Assembly (NCBI GenBank): GCA_002840505.1
Contig: PHBC01000001.1
Location: 257,767-321,766 of the forward strand
Direction of reading: 5' to 3'
From: Deltaproteobacteria bacterium HGW-Deltaproteobacteria-2
Lineage (GTDB): Bacteria > Desulfobacterota > Syntrophia > Syntrophales > Smithellaceae
Length of the DNA: 64,000 nucleotides
A model generated the notes under the pieces. That model made no database searches. It saw only the letters and a list, made by a program, of their open reading frames with translations, and had not been told where the DNA came from. Of this stretch, positions 7,385-16,829 are shown piece after piece. Position 1 is the first letter of the stretch, and every line of letters starts with the position of its first letter. Made by a program: the position numbers and the translations under genes.

Positions 7385-7394
7385 ACATAACCTC

Positions 7395-7686
7395 TTGACG
7401 TATGGTTTCTAACAATTTTAACCAATATTTTCAATCATTAAATCATCGGTTGTTTTCGCGGTTTAATACAAGTTTTCATTCATGCAAATTATAAAAAAAA
7501 TTATAATGTTGTGAAAAAGTGAGGAGTTTGTTATTTTCCACAAAATATTGATCAAATCAAACAGGCAAATATATGAAATATTTTGTTCTTGGCACAGCCG
7601 GTCACGTCGATCACGGAAAAACAGCGTTAATTAAAGCGCTTACCGGAGTAGACACAGATCGTTTGAAAGAGGGGGGGGAAAGGGGA
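7395..7686. repeat. Left copy of the duplicated ruvX-selB junction flanking the RiPP island
   Basis: This block (ruvX-selB intergenic region plus the first ~110 bp of selB) recurs at 16541-16829 in the same orientation. My hand alignment shows about a dozen substitutions and one single-base indel over about 280 bp. The homology resumes inside ruvX (7154-7194 versus 16500-16540), so the original duplicated block was longer and about 200 bp was lost from the right copy. The left copy keeps ruvX whole and selB truncated; the right copy is the reverse. This is the pattern left by single-crossover integration of a circular molecule. Confidence 0.9.
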
Positions 7687-7689: not shown

Positions 7690-8001
7690 GCGGACATTGA
7701 GTGATGGAACTTTTGTAAGCGAAGTTGTGGAGAAGGCCGAAGAAAGATTCAAGGAAGGATATCGACTCAGAGCCAGAGGATATGTGGATTCATTAATCAA
7801 ACGAGTTACTGAGATCACTCAAGTAACTCCGGATGAAATATTAGATTCATTAAGAGATGCAAAAAGGACAAAGGCAAGAAGTACCCTGTGTTATTGGGCA
7901 ACGGAAAAGCTTGGAACGCCTCAAATCCAGTTGGCGTAATTGCGAAACGGACACAATCGGCGATTACTTACGCCGCCAGAAGGGGGAAAAGTGATTGTTG
8001 A
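7670..8001 (+). pseudogene. Decayed C-terminal part of a Y1 (REP-associated/IS200-like) transposase
   Basis: Frame +2 from about 7676 reads [20 protein letters not shown], matching the region after the catalytic domain of large Y1 transposases. It is followed by a DnaA-C-like helix-turn-helix region, KARSTLCYWATEKLG. The frame hits TAA at 7937, but the missing end of that domain (IAKRTQSAITYAARRGK) continues in another frame to TGA at 7999-8001. So there is a frameshift plus loss of the whole catalytic N-terminus. It is fused directly to the selB fragment. The longest open piece (7697-7939, TTG start) is not a functional gene. Confidence 0.62.
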
Positions 8002-8122: not shown

Positions 8123-9352
8123 TTAATTTCTTCGTAAGAGCCAATCCTTTAATGTACTTTTTTTATTTGCAAAGATCGCAAAGGTTGACATCTCTTTATC
8201 ACGAAGGAATAACCTCCATACGGTCTGATGGTGCCTCTTCAAAAGACCTTTGAGGCGAAAAAAATATAAAAGATAGACTGACAGTGGATTTCCGGTTTGC
8301 GTCCGCATATTTACCAGTGTTCTTTTGGGTGGAAAAGCGCATTTGATGGCATGAATCAACTTGCTGAGAAGCCGGTCATCATTAAAGAGCTTTACAATAT
8401 TTGGTGATATGGATGCGGCTTTTCTGAATATTAACTCTTCGGCACGAGCCGCAGCATGAAAACTATCATTATATACATCCAAGTCCTTTGTTATTCGTTC
8501 AGGGATAGATGCACCAGCAAATCTCTTAGCTAAAAAGAGGGTCAGGTAAACACATTTGCTCACGCCCCATTCCCTGCTCCTGCTCAGGACCTGCTCCCAA
8601 TCAAGCTTTCCTTCATAATGCTCAATGGCCATTGAGATATCAAACAGCGGCATGATCCCGTTATCAAATACGTGATGGACACCGGCGTGCATACAAAGAT
8701 GAAGCAGCAAATCTTCGTGGCACAATGACAACGCCTCTATCCCCTCTATGAAGCACGTTTGTGCTCTGGCAAACAGTTTTTCAACATCAACTCGATCAGA
8801 AAATGGAGGAGCAACAATGTTGAAATGGATTTCGATGGGTATCGAATCTTTTTTCCTGTACGACGGCAAATGCTCTTGTGCACAACCTGTTTCTTCTTTT
8901 GAGGGGCTGTAGCCCTGTTCGACCAGTATATCCTGCACCTTCAACAGATCAGTCTGTTTCACCAGAAGGTCTATGTCGCCCATCGGCCGCAGGGCGATGT
9001 TCCGATACACAACGATTGCCAGATGCGCTCCCTTGAGCGCGATCACCGGGATACATTGCTGACGCAAGATACCCAAGATTTTTCCCAACTCGTGGTATAA
9101 TTTCATATTCCTGCCGGAGCTCTGGAGATAGGCCTGCCGTAGTCTCTCCATCACATTGGCCGGAATTGCTGTGCCCGGATGGAATGTGGTCAGGCGATGA
9201 TATAACAAAGGCGTAACGTTGTGCTGGGCTGATTTGCAGAGGAGATCGTCCCAATCTACGCTGGATAGTTCTGCTTCACCTGTTATTCCTGTCCCGTCCG
9301 GATTCCTCCGGAGTAAGGAAAGGAGCAGTTCATCGATTCGGGATCGATCCAT
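8123..9352 (-). CDS. Nucleotidyltransferase-fold family protein of the RiPP island (NTP_transf_5-like)
   Basis: A 409-residue protein with LKGAH (about 106-110) and RPMGDIDLLV (about 122-131). This is the pattern of the uncharacterised nucleotidyltransferase family often found beside lasso-peptide and PqqD/radical-SAM peptide clusters. The GDIDLLV motif would supply metal-binding Asp residues. Its substrate is unknown; in such clusters it may modify the peptide or act in self-protection (inference). It is the last gene of the island on the minus strand, 25 bp after the ABC transporter, and GC-rich like the rest. The C-terminal 30 codons run into AT-richer DNA. Confidence 0.72.
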   Translation of the reverse strand: MDRSRIDELLLSLLRRNPDGTGITGEAELSSVDWDDLLCKSAQHNVTPLLYHRLTTFHPGTAIPANVMERLRQAYLQSSGRNMKLYHELGKILGILRQQCIPVIALKGAHLAIVVYRNIALRPMGDIDLLVKQTDLLKVQDILVEQGYSPSKEETGCAQEHLPSYRKKDSIPIEIHFNIVAPPFSDRVDVEKLFARAQTCFIEGIEALSLCHEDLLLHLCMHAGVHHVFDNGIMPLFDISMAIEHYEGKLDWEQVLSRSREWGVSKCVYLTLFLAKRFAGASIPERITKDLDVYNDSFHAAARAEELIFRKAASISPNIVKLFNDDRLLSKLIHAIKCAFPPKRTLVNMRTQTGNPLSVYLLYFFRLKGLLKRHHQTVWRLFLRDKEMSTFAIFANKKSTLKDWLLRRN

Positions 9353-9377: not shown

Positions 9378-11198
9378 TCAACGGTACTGCCGGGCCTGAG
9401 TTTCAAACAAGTGGGCATACATTCCATCAAAATGAAGCAGTTCTTCGTGAGTGCCTCCTTCGATGATTCTTCCCTCTTTCAGTACATAGATGCGGTCAGC
9501 CATCCGGACGGTGGAAAAGCGATGACTGATCAGGATAGCAGTCCGATCCGCGGCAAGTTTACGGAAATTCTGAAAAATCGTATACTCCGCTTTGGCGTCC
9601 AGAGAACTGGTCGGTTCGTCCAGAATGATGATCTGCGCGTCGCGCAGAAATGCCCGGGACAGCGCAACCTTCTGCCACTCGCCGATGCTGAGTTCCTCAC
9701 CATCCTCAAACAGTTTGCCGAGGATTGTTTCGTAGCCTTTGGGCAATCCGCGGATAACGTCATCCGCTCCCGAGTCTCGTGCCACGGCTATGACCCGCTC
9801 GTGGTCGGGAGGAAGATCGGTATTCCCCAGCCAGATATTCTCGCGAGCTGTCAGGTGGTACTGCGCGTAGTCCTGGAAAAGGACGGAGAATTCACGTCGC
9901 AGGGCCGCGGTTCCAAACCGGCGCAGATCCATTCCGTCGAGGGTGATCGTCCCGCCGGTCGGATCGTACAATCGGCACAACAGTTTGACCAGCGTGGTCT
10001 TTCCTGAGCCATTCTCCCCCACCAGCGCTATGACTTCCCCCGGCCGGATCGCCAAAGACACGTCCTCGAGTACCTTCTGTGCGCCCGTCGGATACTGAAA
10101 ACTGACGTGGTTCAACACGATCCCTGTTTGCATCGGGCGTGGAACGGTAATGGCGTGCGCCGGTTCGACAACCTTCCGTTTCAGGTCCAGGAATTCATGC
10201 ATGTTGGAAAGGAACAGGTTGTCTTCGTAGATCCCGGCAAGGCCGCCCAGCATCCCCTGAAGAAAACCCTGCCCGCGCTGAAAGGCCATGAAGTACATGA
10301 TCATGTCCCCCAATGTGTTCGTCCCCTGCATCGTCCGGTACGCGATAAAGGCCAGTGAACCGTAGATCGCCGCAGTGGCGCAGGTCTGCGCCGCCAATTC
10401 GGCGACGGAACGACGGCCTGTGATTCTCAAACGCTCTTTACGAAGTTTCCGTCGGAGATCGCGAAAACGGCGCACCAACAAGGGACCGAGATTATATAAG
10501 CGGATTTCTTTGGCATGGCTGCCGCCGGTGAGCATCCAGTTGAGATAGCCCGCCTGCCGTTCTGTCGATGTCTGTTCACGTTGCCAGCGATACATCGTGC
10601 CGGCATACCCCAATCGCACGACGATACCGGGAAGAACGGCAACGAATAGTATGACTGCGACGATCCAGTGGAACAAAAAGAGTAATCCCGCCATCGCCAG
10701 CAGAGAGATCGCGTTCTGGGCGACTTGAACCAGACCGTTAACGAGGTGGGTGGGCCGGTAGGGGGCCTCCCGCTGGGCACGATGGAGCGTGTCGTAATAT
10801 TGCGCGCTTTCATAATACTCAAGATCTACCTCAATGGACTTGGCATGGAGGACATTGTTCATGTGATCTGTGACGGCCAGTGACTGCGCTTCGCTGACCA
10901 GGCCCGCTATCGAGCGGGCCAATACGCCTACCAGAGTTACGATACCCATAAGACAAATGAGAAATAACACCTGTCTAAAAGCCATACCTTTGTCAGAAGC
11001 TGTAAGCCCTGCGGTCACCGCATCTACCATGAGCTTCATGAGATAAAGCGGCAATAACGGCAATACCCCTTGCACCACAAGGAGAACCCCGTTTGCTATT
11101 GTCCAGCCTTTCGCGCTTTGCCAGACAAAACTCAACGCCCGCCTGAGCTGCAATACGCGCTGTATTTTCAGTTTTACCGAGGCAGTCTGTTCTTGCAT
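9378..11198 (-). CDS. ABC transporter, fused permease and ATPase (peptide exporter candidate)
   Basis: A 606-residue half-transporter: six-helix type-IV exporter membrane domain (about residues 20-330), then an ATPase with Walker A GENGSGKTT, a signature LSIGEWQK (LSIGE instead of LSGGQ), and Walker B IIILDEPTSSLD. There is no N-terminal C39 peptidase domain, so leader cleavage must come from elsewhere, probably the S26-type peptidase of this cluster. I use the ATG at 11198 rather than 11216. The upstream gene ends in TGA directly before it (TGATATG), and GGAGG stands 8 nt upstream. Likely exports the modified peptide; ATP must be hydrolysed by a homodimer. Confidence 0.9.
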   Translation of the reverse strand: MQEQTASVKLKIQRVLQLRRALSFVWQSAKGWTIANGVLLVVQGVLPLLPLYLMKLMVDAVTAGLTASDKGMAFRQVLFLICLMGIVTLVGVLARSIAGLVSEAQSLAVTDHMNNVLHAKSIEVDLEYYESAQYYDTLHRAQREAPYRPTHLVNGLVQVAQNAISLLAMAGLLFLFHWIVAVILFVAVLPGIVVRLGYAGTMYRWQREQTSTERQAGYLNWMLTGGSHAKEIRLYNLGPLLVRRFRDLRRKLRKERLRITGRRSVAELAAQTCATAAIYGSLAFIAYRTMQGTNTLGDMIMYFMAFQRGQGFLQGMLGGLAGIYEDNLFLSNMHEFLDLKRKVVEPAHAITVPRPMQTGIVLNHVSFQYPTGAQKVLEDVSLAIRPGEVIALVGENGSGKTTLVKLLCRLYDPTGGTITLDGMDLRRFGTAALRREFSVLFQDYAQYHLTARENIWLGNTDLPPDHERVIAVARDSGADDVIRGLPKGYETILGKLFEDGEELSIGEWQKVALSRAFLRDAQIIILDEPTSSLDAKAEYTIFQNFRKLAADRTAILISHRFSTVRMADRIYVLKEGRIIEGGTHEELLHFDGMYAHLFETQARQYR

Positions 11199-11199
11199 A

Positions 11200-12072
11200 T
11201 CAGCGGCCTCCCTCAAGCATCTGCTCGATCTCTTGCCAGAAGGCGCCTGTTAAACTGATATGAAGTATGTGTGCGGGTACGACCCGGGCCAACGCACAAA
11301 GGTTATTGAACCGTTCCAGATGCAGGGCGCGGGTTTCTTCTTTACTCAGACCCTGTGCCATGAACATGGAGGCCTGTTTCACACACTCGACGAGCAGGCT
11401 GACCGCATGCCCGGTGCCTACGGATGCCACCCGATCTTCAACCGCATGGGATAAAAAGAATATACCCTTGAGAGGAACAGCGCTTTGCACGTCCCACGTG
11501 CCGCCCGGCCCCCCGTCCAGAAAACGGCTCCAGGTGGGCCAGGGGTGCGCCCGGTAGTTCCCTTGGGAATCCCGCACAACTAATGTTGTATCATCGCACA
11601 GCGAGTGCCACGGGGCCGGAAGCCTGTCGCTCGCTGTGGTCTTTCCCGTCCCGCCCGGCGCAGCCAGGATCACACCAGTCCCGTTTCGTTCCGCAAGGGC
11701 TCCGTGGATGAGGATTCCTCCCCGGGCCTGCGCTTCGCGGGCAATGATTAACGATAGCTGCATAAGCTGGATATACAGCCCATCGCTGTGATTGCATGGG
11801 CGCAGAACGCAAACGGCAAAACCTTCGTCATCAAATGGTAACGAAGCATGACAATCCGCCGCGGATGCGCGCAAGTCAACCGAAACAAGAAGTCGACGCA
11901 CAATGCCGTGATGAGGATGTTCGATTGCCCCTGTAGAAGGACATAACTGCATTGCGCATCCCAGTTGTGAAACGATGGATACAGCCTCCTCGTCCCCGGC
12001 AGCAATTTCCCAACGGCTTCCATCAGCCCAAAAAAGGTTATGCTGTAATCGCTGCTTCAGTAGATGGTTCAA
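11200..12072 (-). CDS. HPr-kinase-like P-loop protein (resembles SynChlorMet ScmC)
   Basis: 290 residues with a P-loop APGGTGKTT at about 138-146, preceded by IHGALAERNGTGVIL. This is the arrangement of HPr kinase/phosphorylase C-terminal domains and of the HprK-related kinases in lasso-peptide clusters. The following CDDTTLVV may hold the second nucleotide-binding motif. Target unknown; it could phosphorylate the peptide, a carrier or a small molecule. Its place beside two SPASM radical SAM proteins and a PqqD-like protein fits, from memory, the conserved hypothetical of the SynChlorMet cassette. Its stop is 1 bp from the ABC transporter start. Confidence 0.68.
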   Translation of the reverse strand: MNHLLKQRLQHNLFWADGSRWEIAAGDEEAVSIVSQLGCAMQLCPSTGAIEHPHHGIVRRLLVSVDLRASAADCHASLPFDDEGFAVCVLRPCNHSDGLYIQLMQLSLIIAREAQARGGILIHGALAERNGTGVILAAPGGTGKTTASDRLPAPWHSLCDDTTLVVRDSQGNYRAHPWPTWSRFLDGGPGGTWDVQSAVPLKGIFFLSHAVEDRVASVGTGHAVSLLVECVKQASMFMAQGLSKEETRALHLERFNNLCALARVVPAHILHISLTGAFWQEIEQMLEGGR

Positions 12073-12113: not shown

Positions 12114-12758
12114 CTAATCGGGCCGCTCTTGGAGGATTCTATCATCCACAAACAATCGAAATGGCCGTTGGATATACCATTGATGTTTCTGGTCATCGTA
12201 TCGCCCAATGATACGCGGTCCCAGCAGAAGATGAAACTGATCCCGGCCCCGGGCATGGAAAACGATGACTCGGGGACGAAATGGAGCAGGCAATAATCTG
12301 GCGATCACAGCCCGGTGAGACAGGGCGTAATAAAGGGAATGCACCAGAGGAGACACGCTACGGTCAAGGACACCTCGCCAATGAAGCCAACGGCTTGTCA
12401 ACCGGCCTTGTAATCCGCCCGCGATCTTCCGCCGCTTCTGACCACGCCACGCGGCCACCACCCGACCTTTAATATTCCCGAACGGTAAGAGAAAGGTATC
12501 CTCATGAGTGTTGTTGTCACCGAATGTGGATATACCTGCCGGGGTCACACGGATAATGCGATGTACGACCGGCTGATCATTTTTCGGCGGCAGGAAAAAT
12601 ACTACATCGCCAACGCGTAAGGGTCTGCGATCATAAGGCATGATCTCCATCATCTCCGATTCACGTAAAGTGGGATTCATGCTGGGACCGGCATAAGCGG
12701 CAAAGAACATTTTTTCGGGTCTATTCTTTTTAGCAGGCTCAAATTCTTTCGGGTGCAT
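12114..12758 (-). CDS. S26/S24-family serine peptidase, signal-peptidase-like, no membrane anchor
   Basis: Likely leader peptidase of the island. From ATG 12758 it is 214 residues. AGPSMNPTL holds the nucleophile Ser (about S26). RVGDVVFFLPP is followed by VVHRIIRV, where a His (about H66) takes the place of the general-base Lys, as in ER/archaeal/SipW-type signal peptidases. FGDNNTHED (79-87) gives the conserved Asp region. I see no hydrophobic anchor before the Ser, so it may work in the cytoplasm. The open frame extends to 12995, but that part lies over the radical SAM gene. The start 12758 has AAGGGGA in front and follows the upstream stop by 14 bp. The C-terminal ~100 residues are basic and unrecognised. 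Confidence 0.75.
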   Translation of the reverse strand: MHPKEFEPAKKNRPEKMFFAAYAGPSMNPTLRESEMMEIMPYDRRPLRVGDVVFFLPPKNDQPVVHRIIRVTPAGISTFGDNNTHEDTFLLPFGNIKGRVVAAWRGQKRRKIAGGLQGRLTSRWLHWRGVLDRSVSPLVHSLYYALSHRAVIARLLPAPFRPRVIVFHARGRDQFHLLLGPRIIGRYDDQKHQWYIQRPFRLFVDDRILQERPD

Positions 12759-12772
12759 ATTCACTAATCCCC

Positions 12773-13897
12773 TTACCGTGCTGCTTTTTCTCCCAAACGT
12801 GAGGATGGAAAGAGACCCGCCTCTTCCGCCTGCGCACAGAACCAGAACGGCGCCCACAGGCTTCCTGTGGTGTAATAGTTCTGAGCAACGCACGAGCCCA
12901 GGCAGCGCCCCTTCATCAGGCAATGACTGCATACCCCTTCCAGTCTCTCGGGCAATCCCTCCCGCAGTGTTTTCAAGATGGCGTTTTCTCGCCATACCAC
13001 TTCCAGTATGTCCTTTCCTACCTCACCGAAGACCAGATCCGGCACCTGCTCTCCAATGCCGCACAAGGCATAGTGTCCGCTGGCGATTACACCCAGGATG
13101 CCCAAAATCCCGCAAACACCGCACCCATCCCCTCTGGCAATGCTATGGAGAGCTTTAAAAGCATGCGGGTAATGAAAGAAAATCTTCACCTTGGCCTTAG
13201 GCGCCAGTTCCTGTTCCACATGCCGCCCCAATGCGATGAGGTCGGCGATGTTCAGGGTCTCCTGATCTTTATGCAACTTTTCGCCTCGCGCTGTTGGTTG
13301 CACCACATTGAACTTAACCGAGGCCGCTCCCAGTTTTTCGGCTATGTGCACGATGGCATCCACCTGACCGGCATTACCGCGCATCACCGTGAAAATGATC
13401 TGCGGCCTGGTGCCGGTGGCTACAAGGTTGCTCACAGCTTGCTGGGCGGCTTCAAAAGACCCCGGTACACCGCGCACCCATTCGTGAGTCTCCGCATCCG
13501 CTCCGTCAATACTTACGGATACGAATCGGTCGGGAGATTTAGCGATCTCAGCAGCGATCTCCTGTGTGCACAGCAGGCCATTGGTCTCGATCGTCAGCTT
13601 CAACTCTTCACGCCGGACAATCTCCAGCAAACGCGTGAAGTGGGGATGCAACAATGGCTCGCCGCCTGTAAGTTTGACGCCGCTCATCCCCAGCGGCTTG
13701 GCTTCGCGAATCGCCGTCTCGAACAACTCCACTGGCAAGGTGGGATAATGGTTGCCTGTGGCGTCGAACCGGGGACCCATCCAGCAATGGCGGCAGGCAA
13801 GATTACATCCTTCGGTCAAATAGAAATACAACGTGTTGATCGCAGGTATTCCATTCTGTCCCTTCTTCTGTTTTTTCATACCGCCAGGCCCGCTCAT
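12773..13897 (-). CDS. Radical SAM/SPASM peptide maturase 1 (resembles SynChlorMet ScmF)
   Basis: 374 residues. The radical SAM 4Fe-4S motif is CNLACRHCW (Cys at about 31, 35, 38), followed by KLTGGEPLLHP (the GGE SAM-binding motif). The C-terminal third is Cys-rich (CGVCGILG, LCGIGEQ, CSHCLMKGRCLGSC) and fits a SPASM domain with auxiliary clusters, as in PqqE and sactipeptide maturases. Its start overlaps the stop of the other maturase by 4 bp (ATGA). Probably installs a crosslink on the Cys-rich peptides at 15412 and 15721 (inference). A long antisense frame over this gene (12923-13978) is a GC artefact. Confidence 0.88.
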   Translation of the reverse strand: MSGPGGMKKQKKGQNGIPAINTLYFYLTEGCNLACRHCWMGPRFDATGNHYPTLPVELFETAIREAKPLGMSGVKLTGGEPLLHPHFTRLLEIVRREELKLTIETNGLLCTQEIAAEIAKSPDRFVSVSIDGADAETHEWVRGVPGSFEAAQQAVSNLVATGTRPQIIFTVMRGNAGQVDAIVHIAEKLGAASVKFNVVQPTARGEKLHKDQETLNIADLIALGRHVEQELAPKAKVKIFFHYPHAFKALHSIARGDGCGVCGILGILGVIASGHYALCGIGEQVPDLVFGEVGKDILEVVWRENAILKTLREGLPERLEGVCSHCLMKGRCLGSCVAQNYYTTGSLWAPFWFCAQAEEAGLFPSSRLGEKAAR

Positions 13898-15027
13898 GGA
13901 ACTGTGCCCCCTTCTTCAAGAAATCGTCGTAAACAAGCATCCGGACTGGGATGGTCTACCTTGCCTGTAATGGTATAGGCCAGCCCCGGACAGTTACCCG
14001 TGCAATAGGGGACGTATGAACAACCGGCGCATAACTCAAACCAGGTCAACGGGATCGTATGTCGGTTGCGGAGTTTGTTCAGCGTTGGGCTGTGTTGCCA
14101 AATTTCCGCCAACGAATCCTGGTTGATTTGCCCCAGTTCGCTGTGGGCTAGCATGGAGCATGGAACAATTACGCCGTCGGCGCGCACGGCAATCTTACTG
14201 CTTGGACAGCCGCACGCAGTAAGGCGACCTCTATTGGGGAATGCTGGAGCATTCTGTGCCCGTGCCTCCTCCATCTGGCGCCAGACGAGCCCTTCAGCTA
14301 ATGGACCGGCACTTGCCGAGATGCGGTCCGGGTATTTCTCCGCCAGGCACAGCAATTTTGCAATGGCCAACTGTCGCTCTGTAATGGTCAGCATAACATC
14401 ATTCGCATTCAGGCGGCATGTGCCCAGGTACTCGGCGGAGTTGGTGCCAAAAGCAGGCAGGCCCAGTTCTTCCAGAAGGAAGTGAGCGATATTTTCCAGA
14501 TCGTTAACATTATGATGATGAATGGTGACACGCACTGCCACATTAACCCGATGGCGCTGCAGGGTGCGAATGCCACGTATCGCATCGTCGAAAGAGCCTT
14601 TGCCGCGACAGGAATCATGTACCGCCGCACAGGAACCATCCACTGATACCTGTACATTCTCGCAACGACCGGTGTGGGCGATAAAAACCGCCATCTCGTC
14701 GTCAATCAGTGTACCGTTGGATAGGAGGGAGAAACGCATTCGATTACGGACAATACTTTCAAGAAGTACGGGCAGGTCTTTCCGGATAAACGGCTCTCCG
14801 CCTGCTAGAATTACATTCATTACACCGAGCAACCCCAGCTCATCGAAGAATTTAAGCCACTCGTCTGTAGCTAAATCCCGGTATTCTACCGCCGGGTTAT
14901 TGAAGAAGTAGCAGTAGTGGCAGCGAAGGTTGCAGCGTGCGGTAATTTCAATGTCCAGAGTGCGGGGAGTGCGCATGACTCTTGATGCCGTTGGTTCTAT
15001 CTTGTCCATCTTGAGTTCCTCAGGCAT
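13894..15027 (-). CDS. Radical SAM/SPASM peptide maturase 2 (resembles SynChlorMet ScmE)
   Basis: 377 residues. The cluster motif CNLRCHYCY (Cys about 32, 36, 39) is followed by LAGGEPFIRKDL. The C-terminal SPASM region includes CGCPSSKIAVRADG, PCSML and LCAGCSYVPYCTGNCPG, the spacing seen in PqqE-like enzymes with two auxiliary clusters. It starts 3 bp after the PqqD-like gene and overlaps the next maturase, so PqqD-like and both maturases look like one translational unit. Two different maturases in one operon with two precursors suggests either sequential modifications or one enzyme per peptide; the sequence does not decide. Confidence 0.9.
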   Translation of the reverse strand: MPEELKMDKIEPTASRVMRTPRTLDIEITARCNLRCHYCYFFNNPAVEYRDLATDEWLKFFDELGLLGVMNVILAGGEPFIRKDLPVLLESIVRNRMRFSLLSNGTLIDDEMAVFIAHTGRCENVQVSVDGSCAAVHDSCRGKGSFDDAIRGIRTLQRHRVNVAVRVTIHHHNVNDLENIAHFLLEELGLPAFGTNSAEYLGTCRLNANDVMLTITERQLAIAKLLCLAEKYPDRISASAGPLAEGLVWRQMEEARAQNAPAFPNRGRLTACGCPSSKIAVRADGVIVPCSMLAHSELGQINQDSLAEIWQHSPTLNKLRNRHTIPLTWFELCAGCSYVPYCTGNCPGLAYTITGKVDHPSPDACLRRFLEEGGTVP

Positions 15028-15030
15028 CCG

Positions 15031-15318
15031 TTATTTGCTCTCCAGTTCCAACCCCACAAAACCCTGTTCCGCCAGTGTGCTGACAAAGGTGGTAATCTCT
15101 TCGAGGGCGGCCTCTGGAACATCTTCAAAACTGATTTTGATCTCCGCGACAATATCCTTAAGGCTTCGCTTGCCGTCCATCCGTTTCCAGACCAATACAC
15201 CGACAGGATTGGTTCCCACAGCATCGGCCGTATCGGGATTGAAGAGAATGGCCCAATCGTCGAATTCCTCCCTGAGCACAACGATGGGATTAGCAATCGG
15301 TCTATCCGTTTGATTCAT
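15031..15318 (-). CDS. PqqD-like RiPP recognition element protein (resembles SynChlorMet ScmD)
   Basis: Stand-alone RiPP precursor-binding protein of 95 residues from ATG 15318. Recognisable PqqD features: REEFDDWAILFNPDTADAVGTNPVG followed by VLVWKRMDGKRSLKDIVAEI, then a C-terminal helical segment ending in FVSTLAEQGFVGLE. Family members bind the leader peptide and present it to the radical SAM enzyme. The start at 15318 is preferred over 15348 because GGGAG lies about 9 nt upstream of it. It lies between the precursor peptides and the maturases. Confidence 0.85.
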   Translation of the reverse strand: MNQTDRPIANPIVVLREEFDDWAILFNPDTADAVGTNPVGVLVWKRMDGKRSLKDIVAEIKISFEDVPEAALEEITTFVSTLAEQGFVGLELESK

Positions 15319-15411: not shown

Positions 15412-15615
15412 CTAGTTGCCTGTTGTCCCGGTCCCGCAAGTAGTTCCGGCAGTTACCCCGGAACCGCAAGAAGTATTTGCGCCGAACCCGCTACCGCAAG
15501 AATCATCAGGATTTGACCCATTAGCGCAACTACCAGACCCCTTGGATATCTCCCCCAAGGGGACGAAGACCGACGTTTCGTACTTAGGCTTTGTCGTCTT
15601 CTCATTGTCCGACAT
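15412..15615 (-). CDS. Cys-rich RiPP precursor peptide, four Cys at exact 10-residue spacing
   Basis: 67 residues. The leader-like N-terminus includes KPKYETSVFVPLGEISKGSG and is followed by a core with four repeats of the form C-x-x-G. The cysteines are at 30, 40, 50 and 60, exactly ten apart, in a Gly/Ser/Thr/Asn-rich background. The first 28 residues align without gaps with the peptide at 15721. The ribosome site AAGGGGAT precedes the ATG. The pattern fits a thioether-type substrate of the SPASM maturases, with cleavage perhaps near the KGxG that ends the leader (inference). I know of no characterised peptide with this layout. Confidence 0.82.
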   Translation of the reverse strand: MSDNEKTTKPKYETSVFVPLGEISKGSGSCANGSNPDDSCGSGFGANTSCGSGVTAGTTCGTGTTGN

Positions 15616-15720
15616 AGTGAGATCCCCTTATTGCACTAGAGCGTCAGGCAAGCGGCAATGCACTCCGCTACTGCTGGTGGCGAACCGTTCGTTAACACGT
15701 TGGCCCAGCCGCGCAATCTG

Positions 15721-15957
15721 TTAACCAGGTGAAGTGCCGCCAGTGCAGGTAGGGCTTGCACTACCACCGTCCGAGCAAGTCGCCCCATTATTAGTAACGC
15801 CGGCCGTGCAAGCCGTCTGTGCTAAAGGACCAGCCGTGCAGGCATCTGTATCTCCACTTCCCGCTGTGCAGGCTCCCGCCCCTTTGGCCAGCCCACCTAA
15901 GGGTATGACGATGGGAGCTTCGTACTTAGGCTTTGTCCCCTCATCTTTCTTAGACAT
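15721..15957 (-). CDS. Cys-rich RiPP precursor peptide, five Cys in a near-decad repeat
   Basis: 78 residues, paralogue of the peptide at 15412. The leader has KPKYEAPIVIPLGGLAKGAG; the core has C-x-x-G units at Cys 30, 40, 50, 61 and 71, three of them CTAG. The leader is the conserved half (TKPKYE, PLG, KG-x-G-x-C), as expected if it is the docking site for the PqqD-like protein. The core keeps the Cys-x-x-Gly spacing but changes residues between. A strong ribosome site AAGGAG is 9 nt before the ATG. First gene of the island operon, about 105 bp before the second precursor. The gap between them holds no gene I can recognise. Confidence 0.82.
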   Translation of the reverse strand: MSKKDEGTKPKYEAPIVIPLGGLAKGAGACTAGSGDTDACTAGPLAQTACTAGVTNNGATCSDGGSASPTCTGGTSPG

Positions 15958-16499: not shown

Positions 16500-16829
16500 G
16501 AAACGATTCACCTTTTCACATTGTATGCCTTCTGAACCATTGGACGGATGGTTTCCAACAATTTTAACCAATATTTTCAATCATTAAATCATCGGTTGTT
16601 TTCGCGGTTTAATGCACGTTTTCATTCATGCAAATTATAAAACAAATTATAATGTTGTGAAAAAGTGAGGAGTTTGTTATTTTCCACAAAACATTATCAA
16701 ATCAAACAGGCAAATATATGAAACATTTTGTTCTTGGCACAGCCGGTCATGTCGATCACGGAAAAACCGCGTTAATTAAAGCGCTTACCGGGGTAGACAC
16801 CGATCGTTTGAAAGAGGAAAAAAAAAGGG
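16500..16829. repeat. Right copy of the ruvX-selB junction
   Basis: 16500-16540 matches 41 bp inside ruvX (7154-7194) with one mismatch. The next base jumps to sequence matching 7395 onward, so the 5' part of ruvX (about 200 bp) is missing here. From 16541 the copy runs through the intergenic region and into the start of intact selB. TATAAT (16648-16653) is conserved in both copies (7502-7507) and may be the selB -10 box. Confidence 0.9.

Follow-up and report, generated by a model that had tools for sequence, protein, structure and literature searches.

Cys-x-x-Gly repeat peptides as probable substrates of a SynChlorMet-type radical SAM cassette

The peptides encoded by two small adjacent genes of Deltaproteobacteria bacterium HGW-Deltaproteobacteria-2 (Smithellaceae) are, judged from their sequences, almost certainly the raw material of the SynChlorMet cassette that lies beside them. 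The genes belong to a stretch of 64,000 nucleotides of contig PHBC01000001.1, here called the window. Both peptides had been named as substrates of the cassette in the original prediction, and this is borne out by the conservation of leader and core and by co-occurrence, relatives of the peptides being detected at 25 of 35 cassette loci and at none of 54 control loci. A cassette for which no paper was found in open-licence PMC thereby becomes a testable pathway, with a substrate family of 45 peptides and a predicted motif, cleavage site and bond.

Gene Cluster and Encoded Proteins

On the minus strand the genes follow the order peptide 1, peptide 2, ScmD, ScmE, ScmF, S26 peptidase, ScmC, MsbA-like ABC exporter and NTP_transf_5 nucleotidyltransferase (Table 1). 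ScmC, ScmD, ScmE and ScmF lie in one cluster and all exceed their curated NCBIfam cut-offs, which confirms the earlier assignment of the neighbours to the SynChlorMet cassette.

Table 1. Features of the peptide and cassette region in window coordinates.
Feature	Coordinates	Strand	Details
Direct repeat, left copy	7389-7672	+	284 bp, 95% identical to 16535-16817
NTP_transf_5 nucleotidyltransferase	8123-9352	-	PF14907 E 9.5e-62
MsbA-like ABC exporter	9378-11216	-	PF00005, PF00664; ATG option 11198
ScmC, HprK-like kinase, PEPCK fold	11200-12072	-	TIGR04249 204.6 bits, cut-off 125
S26 (SipW/archaeal-type signal peptidase I-like), likely leader peptidase	12114-12758	-	ATG 12758, alternative 12710
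ScmF, second radical SAM/SPASM maturase	12773-13897	-	TIGR04251 526.8 bits, cut-off 400
ScmE, radical SAM/SPASM maturase	13894-15027	-	TIGR04250 559.7 bits, cut-off 400
ScmD, stand-alone PqqD-like RiPP recognition element	15031-15318	-	95 aa, ATG at 15318; PF05402
Precursor peptide 2	15412-15615	-	67 aa, four C-x-x-G units
Peptide 2, predicted leader	15538-15615	-	residues 1-26
Peptide 2, predicted core		-	residues 27-67
Precursor peptide 1	15721-15957	-	78 aa, five C-x-x-G units
Peptide 1, predicted leader	15880-15957	-	residues 1-26
Peptide 1, predicted core		-	residues 27-78
Direct repeat, right copy	16535-16817	+	covers upstream region and start of selB

The two open reading frames are adjacent, and an ORF check together with the alignment upholds the claim of a common leader, since the products align without a gap up to Cys30 and share KPKYE, PLG and KG-x-G-x-C. 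Purine-rich, Shine-Dalgarno-like stretches (GGGGAAGGAG and AAGGGGA) lie upstream of both starts. The Cys positions had also been read correctly (30, 40, 50, 61 and 71 in peptide 1; 30, 40, 50 and 60 in peptide 2), and all nine Cys open a C-x-x-G unit, an outcome reached in none of 200,000 shuffles of the cores. The leader Pro is absent from peptide 2, in which YETS stands in place of YxxP.

ScmD scores 112.2 bits against TIGR04248 (cut-off 100), and its AF2 model (pLDDT 93.6) has as best fold matches 5v1v and 5v1u, in which TbiB1 is complexed with lasso leaders, with a TM of 0.73 by query length; a search of its sequence against the PDB gave four matches at E of at least 0.13, PqqD-family and TbiB1 among them. 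SPASM maturases carry the pattern CxxxCxxC plus CX9-15GX4C...CX2CX5CX3C...C, and both elements are present in ScmE and in ScmF. The Cys residues concerned are invariant in 9 of 9 aligned ScmE sequences (C32/C36/C39 and C272/290/333/336/342/346/365, a complete 7-Cys SPASM pattern) and in 24 of 24 aligned ScmF sequences (C31/C35/C38 and C262/279/323/326/332/336/354). The solved structures that the two enzymes match, SkfB, PqqE and others, are all distant, and no solved thioether synthase is close to either. When five of the proteins were submitted to PADLOC, the sole matches were viperin/radical-SAM, for ScmE and ScmF.

Among NCBIfam models the S26 protein is matched best by TIGR02228, for archaeal signal peptidase I (E 2.5e-11, under cut-off), and the protein contains GPSMNPT and GDVVFF...VVHRI, which we take to be Ser and His boxes of the archaeal/SipW type. 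Among 19 S26 ORFs compared, the SM box is found in 18 and the GD...HR pattern, as written, in 11. ScmC retains H123, G143-K144 and D160-D161 in all 23 aligned sequences, and its AF2 model (pLDDT 89) has a PEPCK fold (VIA Z 14.7 over 255 residues, rmsd 4.1); PEPCKs occupy the matches listed by the fold search, HprK is not among the matches listed, and a comparison of the ScmC sequence with the PDB gave nothing credible. For the ABC exporter the best NCBIfam match is MsbA (284.9 bits, cut-off 602).

Anatomy of the Peptide Family

The peptide profile is based on a set of 33 peptides (A2), 30 of which have at least three C-x-x-G units. This set omits ORFs with at least three such units that resemble chance frames (L019, L026:17875, L034:562 and L039), as well as L045:5459-5659, whose leader had been removed by the start-codon rule. 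Family statistics were taken on 45 peptides, excluding L131, which ends at a contig end, and L139. C-x-x-G was a criterion in the selection of many of the 45, and the Cys and Gly statistics are therefore partly given by construction; with this reservation, 229 of 264 Cys residues (87%) have Gly at +3, where shuffled sequences average 22% and never exceed 29%, and 156 of 220 Cys-Cys distances are 10 or 11, where shuffles average 8% and never exceed 14%. The decad spacing put forward in the original prediction holds as the mode of the family and fails as a strict rule. Among the 11 peptides that only the profile brought in, 58 of 62 Cys have Gly at +3 and 39 of 51 distances are 10 or 11. Gly at +3 or +4 combined accounts for 252 of the 264 Cys, some units being C-x-x-x-G. 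Over offsets from -9 to +9, none comes near the +3 level except -7 (136 of 219), which is the echo of Gly+3 from the neighbouring repeat.

Conservation of the leader spans bacterial phyla and extends to methanogens. Pro occupies Tyr+3 in 44 of the 45 peptides, some of which had been selected with the YxxP motif, and YxxP is also present in all 11 profile-only peptides. Every one of the 45 has Val, Leu, Ile, Met, Phe, Thr or Ala at Tyr+5 and Leu, Ile, Met, Phe or Val at Tyr+8. From this Tyr to the first Cys the spacing is 17-25 residues in the A2 peptides and +18 in both window peptides. A search of PDB sequences with the peptide profile returned no credible relative. One precursor, at L038:12373-13035 (-), is 220 aa in total and has CQPG/CQVG repeats followed by a long tail rich in Ser, Lys and Pro.

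Co-occurrence of Peptides and Cassette

Among the best 80 matches of a ScmE search, 26 represent cassette loci (L021-L046; 44-77% identity, L045 partial) and the 54 weaker ones, other radical-SAM loci (L047-L100), served as controls; eight further cassette loci (L013-L020) were added. The hosts of L021-L046 include Brocadiaceae, Anaerolineales, Aminicenantes, Syntrophaceae and Desulfobacteraceae, and also Nitrospirae, Omnitrophota, Chlorobiaceae, Lentisphaeria and methanogens, among others. For each cassette locus the profile was rebuilt without that locus's own rows, and the controls were scanned with the full profile. On this leave-one-locus-out basis the 25 positives among 35 cassette loci include the window, in which peptide 1 scores 48.0 bits (E 6e-13) and peptide 2 scores 42.0 bits (E 4e-11). 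The original prediction had stated that a lack of such peptides near other cassettes would count against it, and the opposite is seen, most other genomes with the cassette having them; after removal of the duplicates L028 and L039, 24 of the 33 distinct loci are positive, and L020 adds a 25th that was recognised only through its motif. The L020 peptide is an A2 row, yet is missed by the full profile; G042 scores via two other peptides.

Where no peptide was seen on the stretch, it was in some cases found elsewhere in the same genome, as for L017/L039 (G031) and L019 (G157), and the G031 peptide adjoins ScmC, S26, exporter and nucleotidyltransferase. Six of the 33 distinct loci have no such peptide on the stretch or elsewhere. 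In L021, L023, L025 and L041 a contig end lies within about 1.1 kb of ScmE, in L031 it lies within 1.5 kb, and in L046 no peptide is present despite about 10 kb on each side. Of the 25 distinct loci with a peptide gene on the stretch, 20 have one next to ScmC or ScmF; that of the window adjoins ScmD.

A draw of 247 genomes of the same phylum gave ScmE (E<=1e-100) in nine and a peptide match in 18, with all nine ScmE genomes in both sets; only G157 and G031 are independent (two of two), because the other seven had supplied profile rows. Several of the peptide-only genomes carry parts of a related cassette: in G072, G051 and G013 a divergent ScmD-E-F-C set lies beside the peptide, and short contigs of G023 (ScmF, ScmC, S26) and G116 (ScmC, S26) hold some of the genes. 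G005 and G078, also on short contigs, are from the genus of G042, a genome with ScmE. The match in G075 lies inside a 664-codon open frame and is probably spurious. In G087 a peptide gene (L123:8341-8547, +) stands alone, with no Scm enzyme within about 8 kb. A further 12 loci, L121-L132, are all positive and were not used as evidence, because the same profile had selected them.

G260, a member of the same genus found later, has a divergent cassette (L139) with a ScmE of 346 bits, under cut-off, and with two peptides of the family, scoring 41.5 and 30.3 bits, close to a 506-aa fusion of ScmC with the S26 peptidase (L139:6114-7634, +); one of these precursors is mostly built of C-x-x-x-G units. 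In L014 and L024 it is the nucleotidyltransferase to which S26 is fused, and the two kinds of fusion support one common pathway. A second PqqD-domain protein of 144 aa, with an N-terminal twin-Arg-like hydrophobic stretch, is encoded beside the L014 cassette (L014:7416-7850, -), and weak ScmD-profile matches of similar length occur near the L027, L036, L037 and L038 cassettes.

Simpler detectors proved less specific than the profile. Counting C-x-x-G alone (at least three units) selected 24 of 34 cassette loci and 14 of 54 controls, and at least L019 and L039 were positive only through chance frames. Requiring in addition a [YW]xxP-hydrophobic leader gave 24 of 34 against five of 54, and the profile (0/54) was preferred; four of the five positive controls resemble chance frames. 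The Micromonospora control L050:8392-8529 (+), which has a WTTP leader and a CACGCAGG core near another radical-SAM gene, could be a genuine precursor for a different, unrelated radical-SAM RiPP. It is nevertheless very improbable that chance frames or small, unrelated proteins rich in Cys and Gly account for the ORFs under study. Their low complexity, the C-x-x-G triples of the control loci and the lone gene of G087 would be expected of such frames, but the absence of any profile-positive control, a leader kept from bacterial phyla to methanogens and the presence of ribosome-binding sites would not.

Relation to the Designated Precursor ScmA

To our knowledge, descriptions of the cassette had left its precursor unidentified. 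That statement, repeated in the original prediction, does not survive, for NCBIfam already contains TIGR04252, 'SCM_precur_ScmA', a model of 49 positions with a cut-off of 35 bits. All 49 positions are matched in L045, and this end-to-end cover of a YxxP-type leader and a CxxG core indicates that TIGR04252 models the same kind of peptide. Peptide 1 scores 23 bits against it, under the cut-off, and peptide 2 gives no match. None of the 33 related peptides reaches the cut-off either, so that at its cut-off the NCBIfam precursor model misses every one scanned; matches at E<=0.1 are obtained for ten of the 33, the strongest at E 2.4e-7 (30.8 bits). A wider description of ScmA-like peptides (YxxPx[LVI] leader, C-x-x-G repeats, Scm cluster) does fit the window, with peptide 2 lacking the Pro. 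Since the model exists, the window peptides are divergent members of a designated precursor kind and no first discovery. As a detector TIGR04252 was set aside: at E<=0.001 it finds nothing in 40 genomes, the peptides' own included, and nothing in controls, and at E<=10 it also matches in 8 of 14 control genomes. Searches of open-licence PMC, where absence is weak evidence, found no literature on SynChlorMet or TIGR04248-TIGR04252, and for ScmE/ScmF with radical SAM returned only titles unrelated to the cassette.

Origin of the Cassette

The G+C content is 52-57% over 9-16 kb and 44% over 8-9 kb; the remainder of the first 32 kb has 36-46%. In several relatives within the genus, for example G247 (95% identity), G256 and G258, the two flanks lie together without the insert, and in several the matches to the left and right repeats overlap, as for a single copy, an arrangement that reads as a duplication-type insertion. 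The same flanks are about 12 kb apart in G030, so that site may hold something else. A ScmE match at E<=1e-60 is missing from 15 of 16 other genus members, and the ScmE of a Brocadiaceae genome, among the best 80 matches, shares 76-77% identity with that of the window. Taken together, the G+C content, the insert-free relatives, the direct repeats and the Brocadiaceae identity make the cassette read as a horizontally acquired island. At its left edge an 80-aa ORF (7697-7939, +) has a weak match to a DnaA C-terminal domain (E 0.0029, under cut-off) and by resemblance is perhaps, we assume, the remnant of a REP/IS200-type transposase.

Proposed Pathway and Chemistry

A pathway in which ScmA-type precursors are handled by ScmD, ScmE, ScmF, ScmC, S26 and the exporter is probable as a whole. 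We infer each of its chemical steps, its cut site and its order of events from what the analysis observed, namely the genes, their co-occurrence, the conservation of motifs, the folds and the conserved active-site residues. The stand-alone recognition element ScmD would bind the leader motif YxxPx[LVI]xx[LI] and offer the core to ScmE and ScmF, whose most likely product is one Cys thioether for each unit of about ten residues, at -2 Da each. The best candidate for the bond joins Cys-S to the C-alpha of the conserved Gly at +3 (or +4), which would give a string of small rings.

SPASM enzymes catalyse many kinds of reaction, and ScmE and ScmF might instead form C-C bonds, epimers or oxidised Cys on the same substrates, with thiols, free or modified, that bind a metal or a redox partner. 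We regard this as unlikely, though deserving of attention, since PqqE (C-C bond) stands alongside SkfB among the solved relatives matched, and since a Cys with Gly at +3 could equally be a ligand or turn motif. However, no unit position other than those of Cys and Gly is dominated by one residue, the next best being Ala at +6 (42%), so that Cys is the obvious donor, and SPASM enzymes that act on Cys-rich cores often make thioethers.

The Cys-Gly thioether, our preferred bond, is the most specific hypothesis because of the conservation of Cys and Gly+3 and because of streptosactin and thuricin CD. According to the passages of those papers drawn on here, GggB, a SPASM enzyme, installs a Cys31-Gly34 sactionine in streptosactin (PMC8172795) as part of a pair of 4-residue rings (PMC13361665), and in thuricin CD two radical-SAM enzymes, acting as a complex, modify two precursors (PMC12093266). 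The window shares with streptosactin a SPASM enzyme with Cys as target and the C-x-x-G spacing of the sactionine, and with thuricin CD the pairing of two enzymes with two precursors. In contrast, streptosactin is a 14-mer with two rings and the window peptides are long decad repeats whose chemistry is here hypothetical; the same passages name no kinase, S26 peptidase or nucleotidyltransferase, whereas the window cluster has all three. Counting against the thioether model, ScmE and ScmF are distant from solved synthases, and a strict i,i+3 ring is strained by the C-x-x-x-G units of L139.

The kinase ScmC would phosphorylate Ser or Thr of the core, and from sequence the Ser directly after the first C-x-x-G may be the site. 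Outside the AYA/AHA group it is found in 16 of 37 peptides, both window peptides among them, against 19 of 132 after later units (p 0.0004, post hoc and on related sequences; p 0.09 for Ser or Thr combined). In the system of the linear polyphosphorylated peptides (LPP), so far as the relevant passages report, deletion of the kinase gene abolished phosphorylation at Ser3 (PMC13381572). Phosphorylation of this LPP-like kind could even be the main modification, with the radical enzymes as accessories, a reading that would suit the LPP-like chassis of the cassette (PMC13381572), the unvarying H, GK and DD residues of ScmC and the post hoc Ser enrichment. We consider it distinctly improbable, because the conserved part of the core is the Cys/Gly repeat and because ScmF occurs in 28 of 34 fetched stretches against 17 of 34 for S26, alone or fused (many of these stretches end early). 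With thioether formation kept as the main step, the nucleotidyltransferase may extend the phosphate added by ScmC, a role left unsupported by LPP, in which deletion of that gene caused no detectable change according to the same passages (PMC13381572).

The SipW-like S26 peptidase would then remove the leader after about residue 26, where the window peptides have the small-x-small sites AKG|A and SKG|S. A small-x-small site whose last residue falls at Y+14 to Y+16 is present in 39 of 45 peptides (shuffles 20.8 +/- 3.0; 0 of 2000 reach this). In the LPP passages available, loss of the peptidase gene likewise abolished leader removal, there after Thr-1 (PMC13381572). The occurrence of S26 in only half of the fetched stretches speaks against this step, and none was seen near L027, L036, L037, L038, L046 and L121. 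The MsbA-like exporter would release the finished product. More tentatively, and with the odds somewhat against the full combination, the cassettes may define a hybrid RiPP class of anaerobic bacteria and methanogens in which every decad is cross-linked by SPASM enzymes as 4-residue Cys-Gly sactionine rings, with phosphorylation and capping by the kinase and nucleotidyltransferase and release by the SipW-like peptidase.

Comparison with Known Systems

The window agrees with a SynChlorMet cassette with ScmA in having ScmC-ScmF over their cut-offs and an adjacent precursor with YxxP-type leader and CxxG core. It differs in that its peptides fall under the ScmA cut-off and that its S26, ABC and nucleotidyltransferase proteins match no SynChlorMet-named model.

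Lasso clusters with kinase and nucleotidyltransferase have been described, in the passages at hand (PMC10368454, PMC8498205). The Paeninodin/Bsf type resembles the window in its recognition element, HprK-like kinase, nucleotidyltransferase, transporter and YxxPxL leader; the nine proteins scanned in the window cluster, however, include neither a macrolactam cyclase nor a B2 peptidase.

A further likeness is to LPP, a 2026 description of which, in the parts used here, gives as the conserved set a recognition element, an HprK-like kinase, a SipW-like peptidase, an NTP transferase and an MsbA-like transporter (PMC13381572). All five parts are found in the window, the SipW-like signal peptidase I included. 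The original prediction made no mention of this likeness of peptidase, kinase, nucleotidyltransferase and exporter to an LPP/lasso set. That source gives the lasso recognition motif as [Y/W]xxPx[L/V/I/A/F/Y] and the LPP leader motif as YxxPxVLxHQxIxFETxxS, of which the window leader has the YxxPxV part only. Counted along the latter motif, Thr-1 is Y+15 and Ser3 is Y+18, close to the predicted cut at Y+14 and the first Cys at Y+18 in the window. On the other side, the passages describe LPP as confined to Bacillota, a term search of the paper gave no occurrence of radical SAM (PMC13381572), and the longer HQxIxFETxxS motif is missing here. Because the full LPP leader motif is missing, the cassette is not filed as LPP. 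What is new is the combination of the LPP core set with two complete SPASM enzymes, and a window leader that carries the lasso/LPP motif YxxPx[LVI]. As a working model, the cassette is an LPP/lasso chassis joined to two complete SPASM enzymes and like LPP up to the chemistry of the core, which ties the phosphorylated LPP/lasso toolkit to radical-SAM chemistry.
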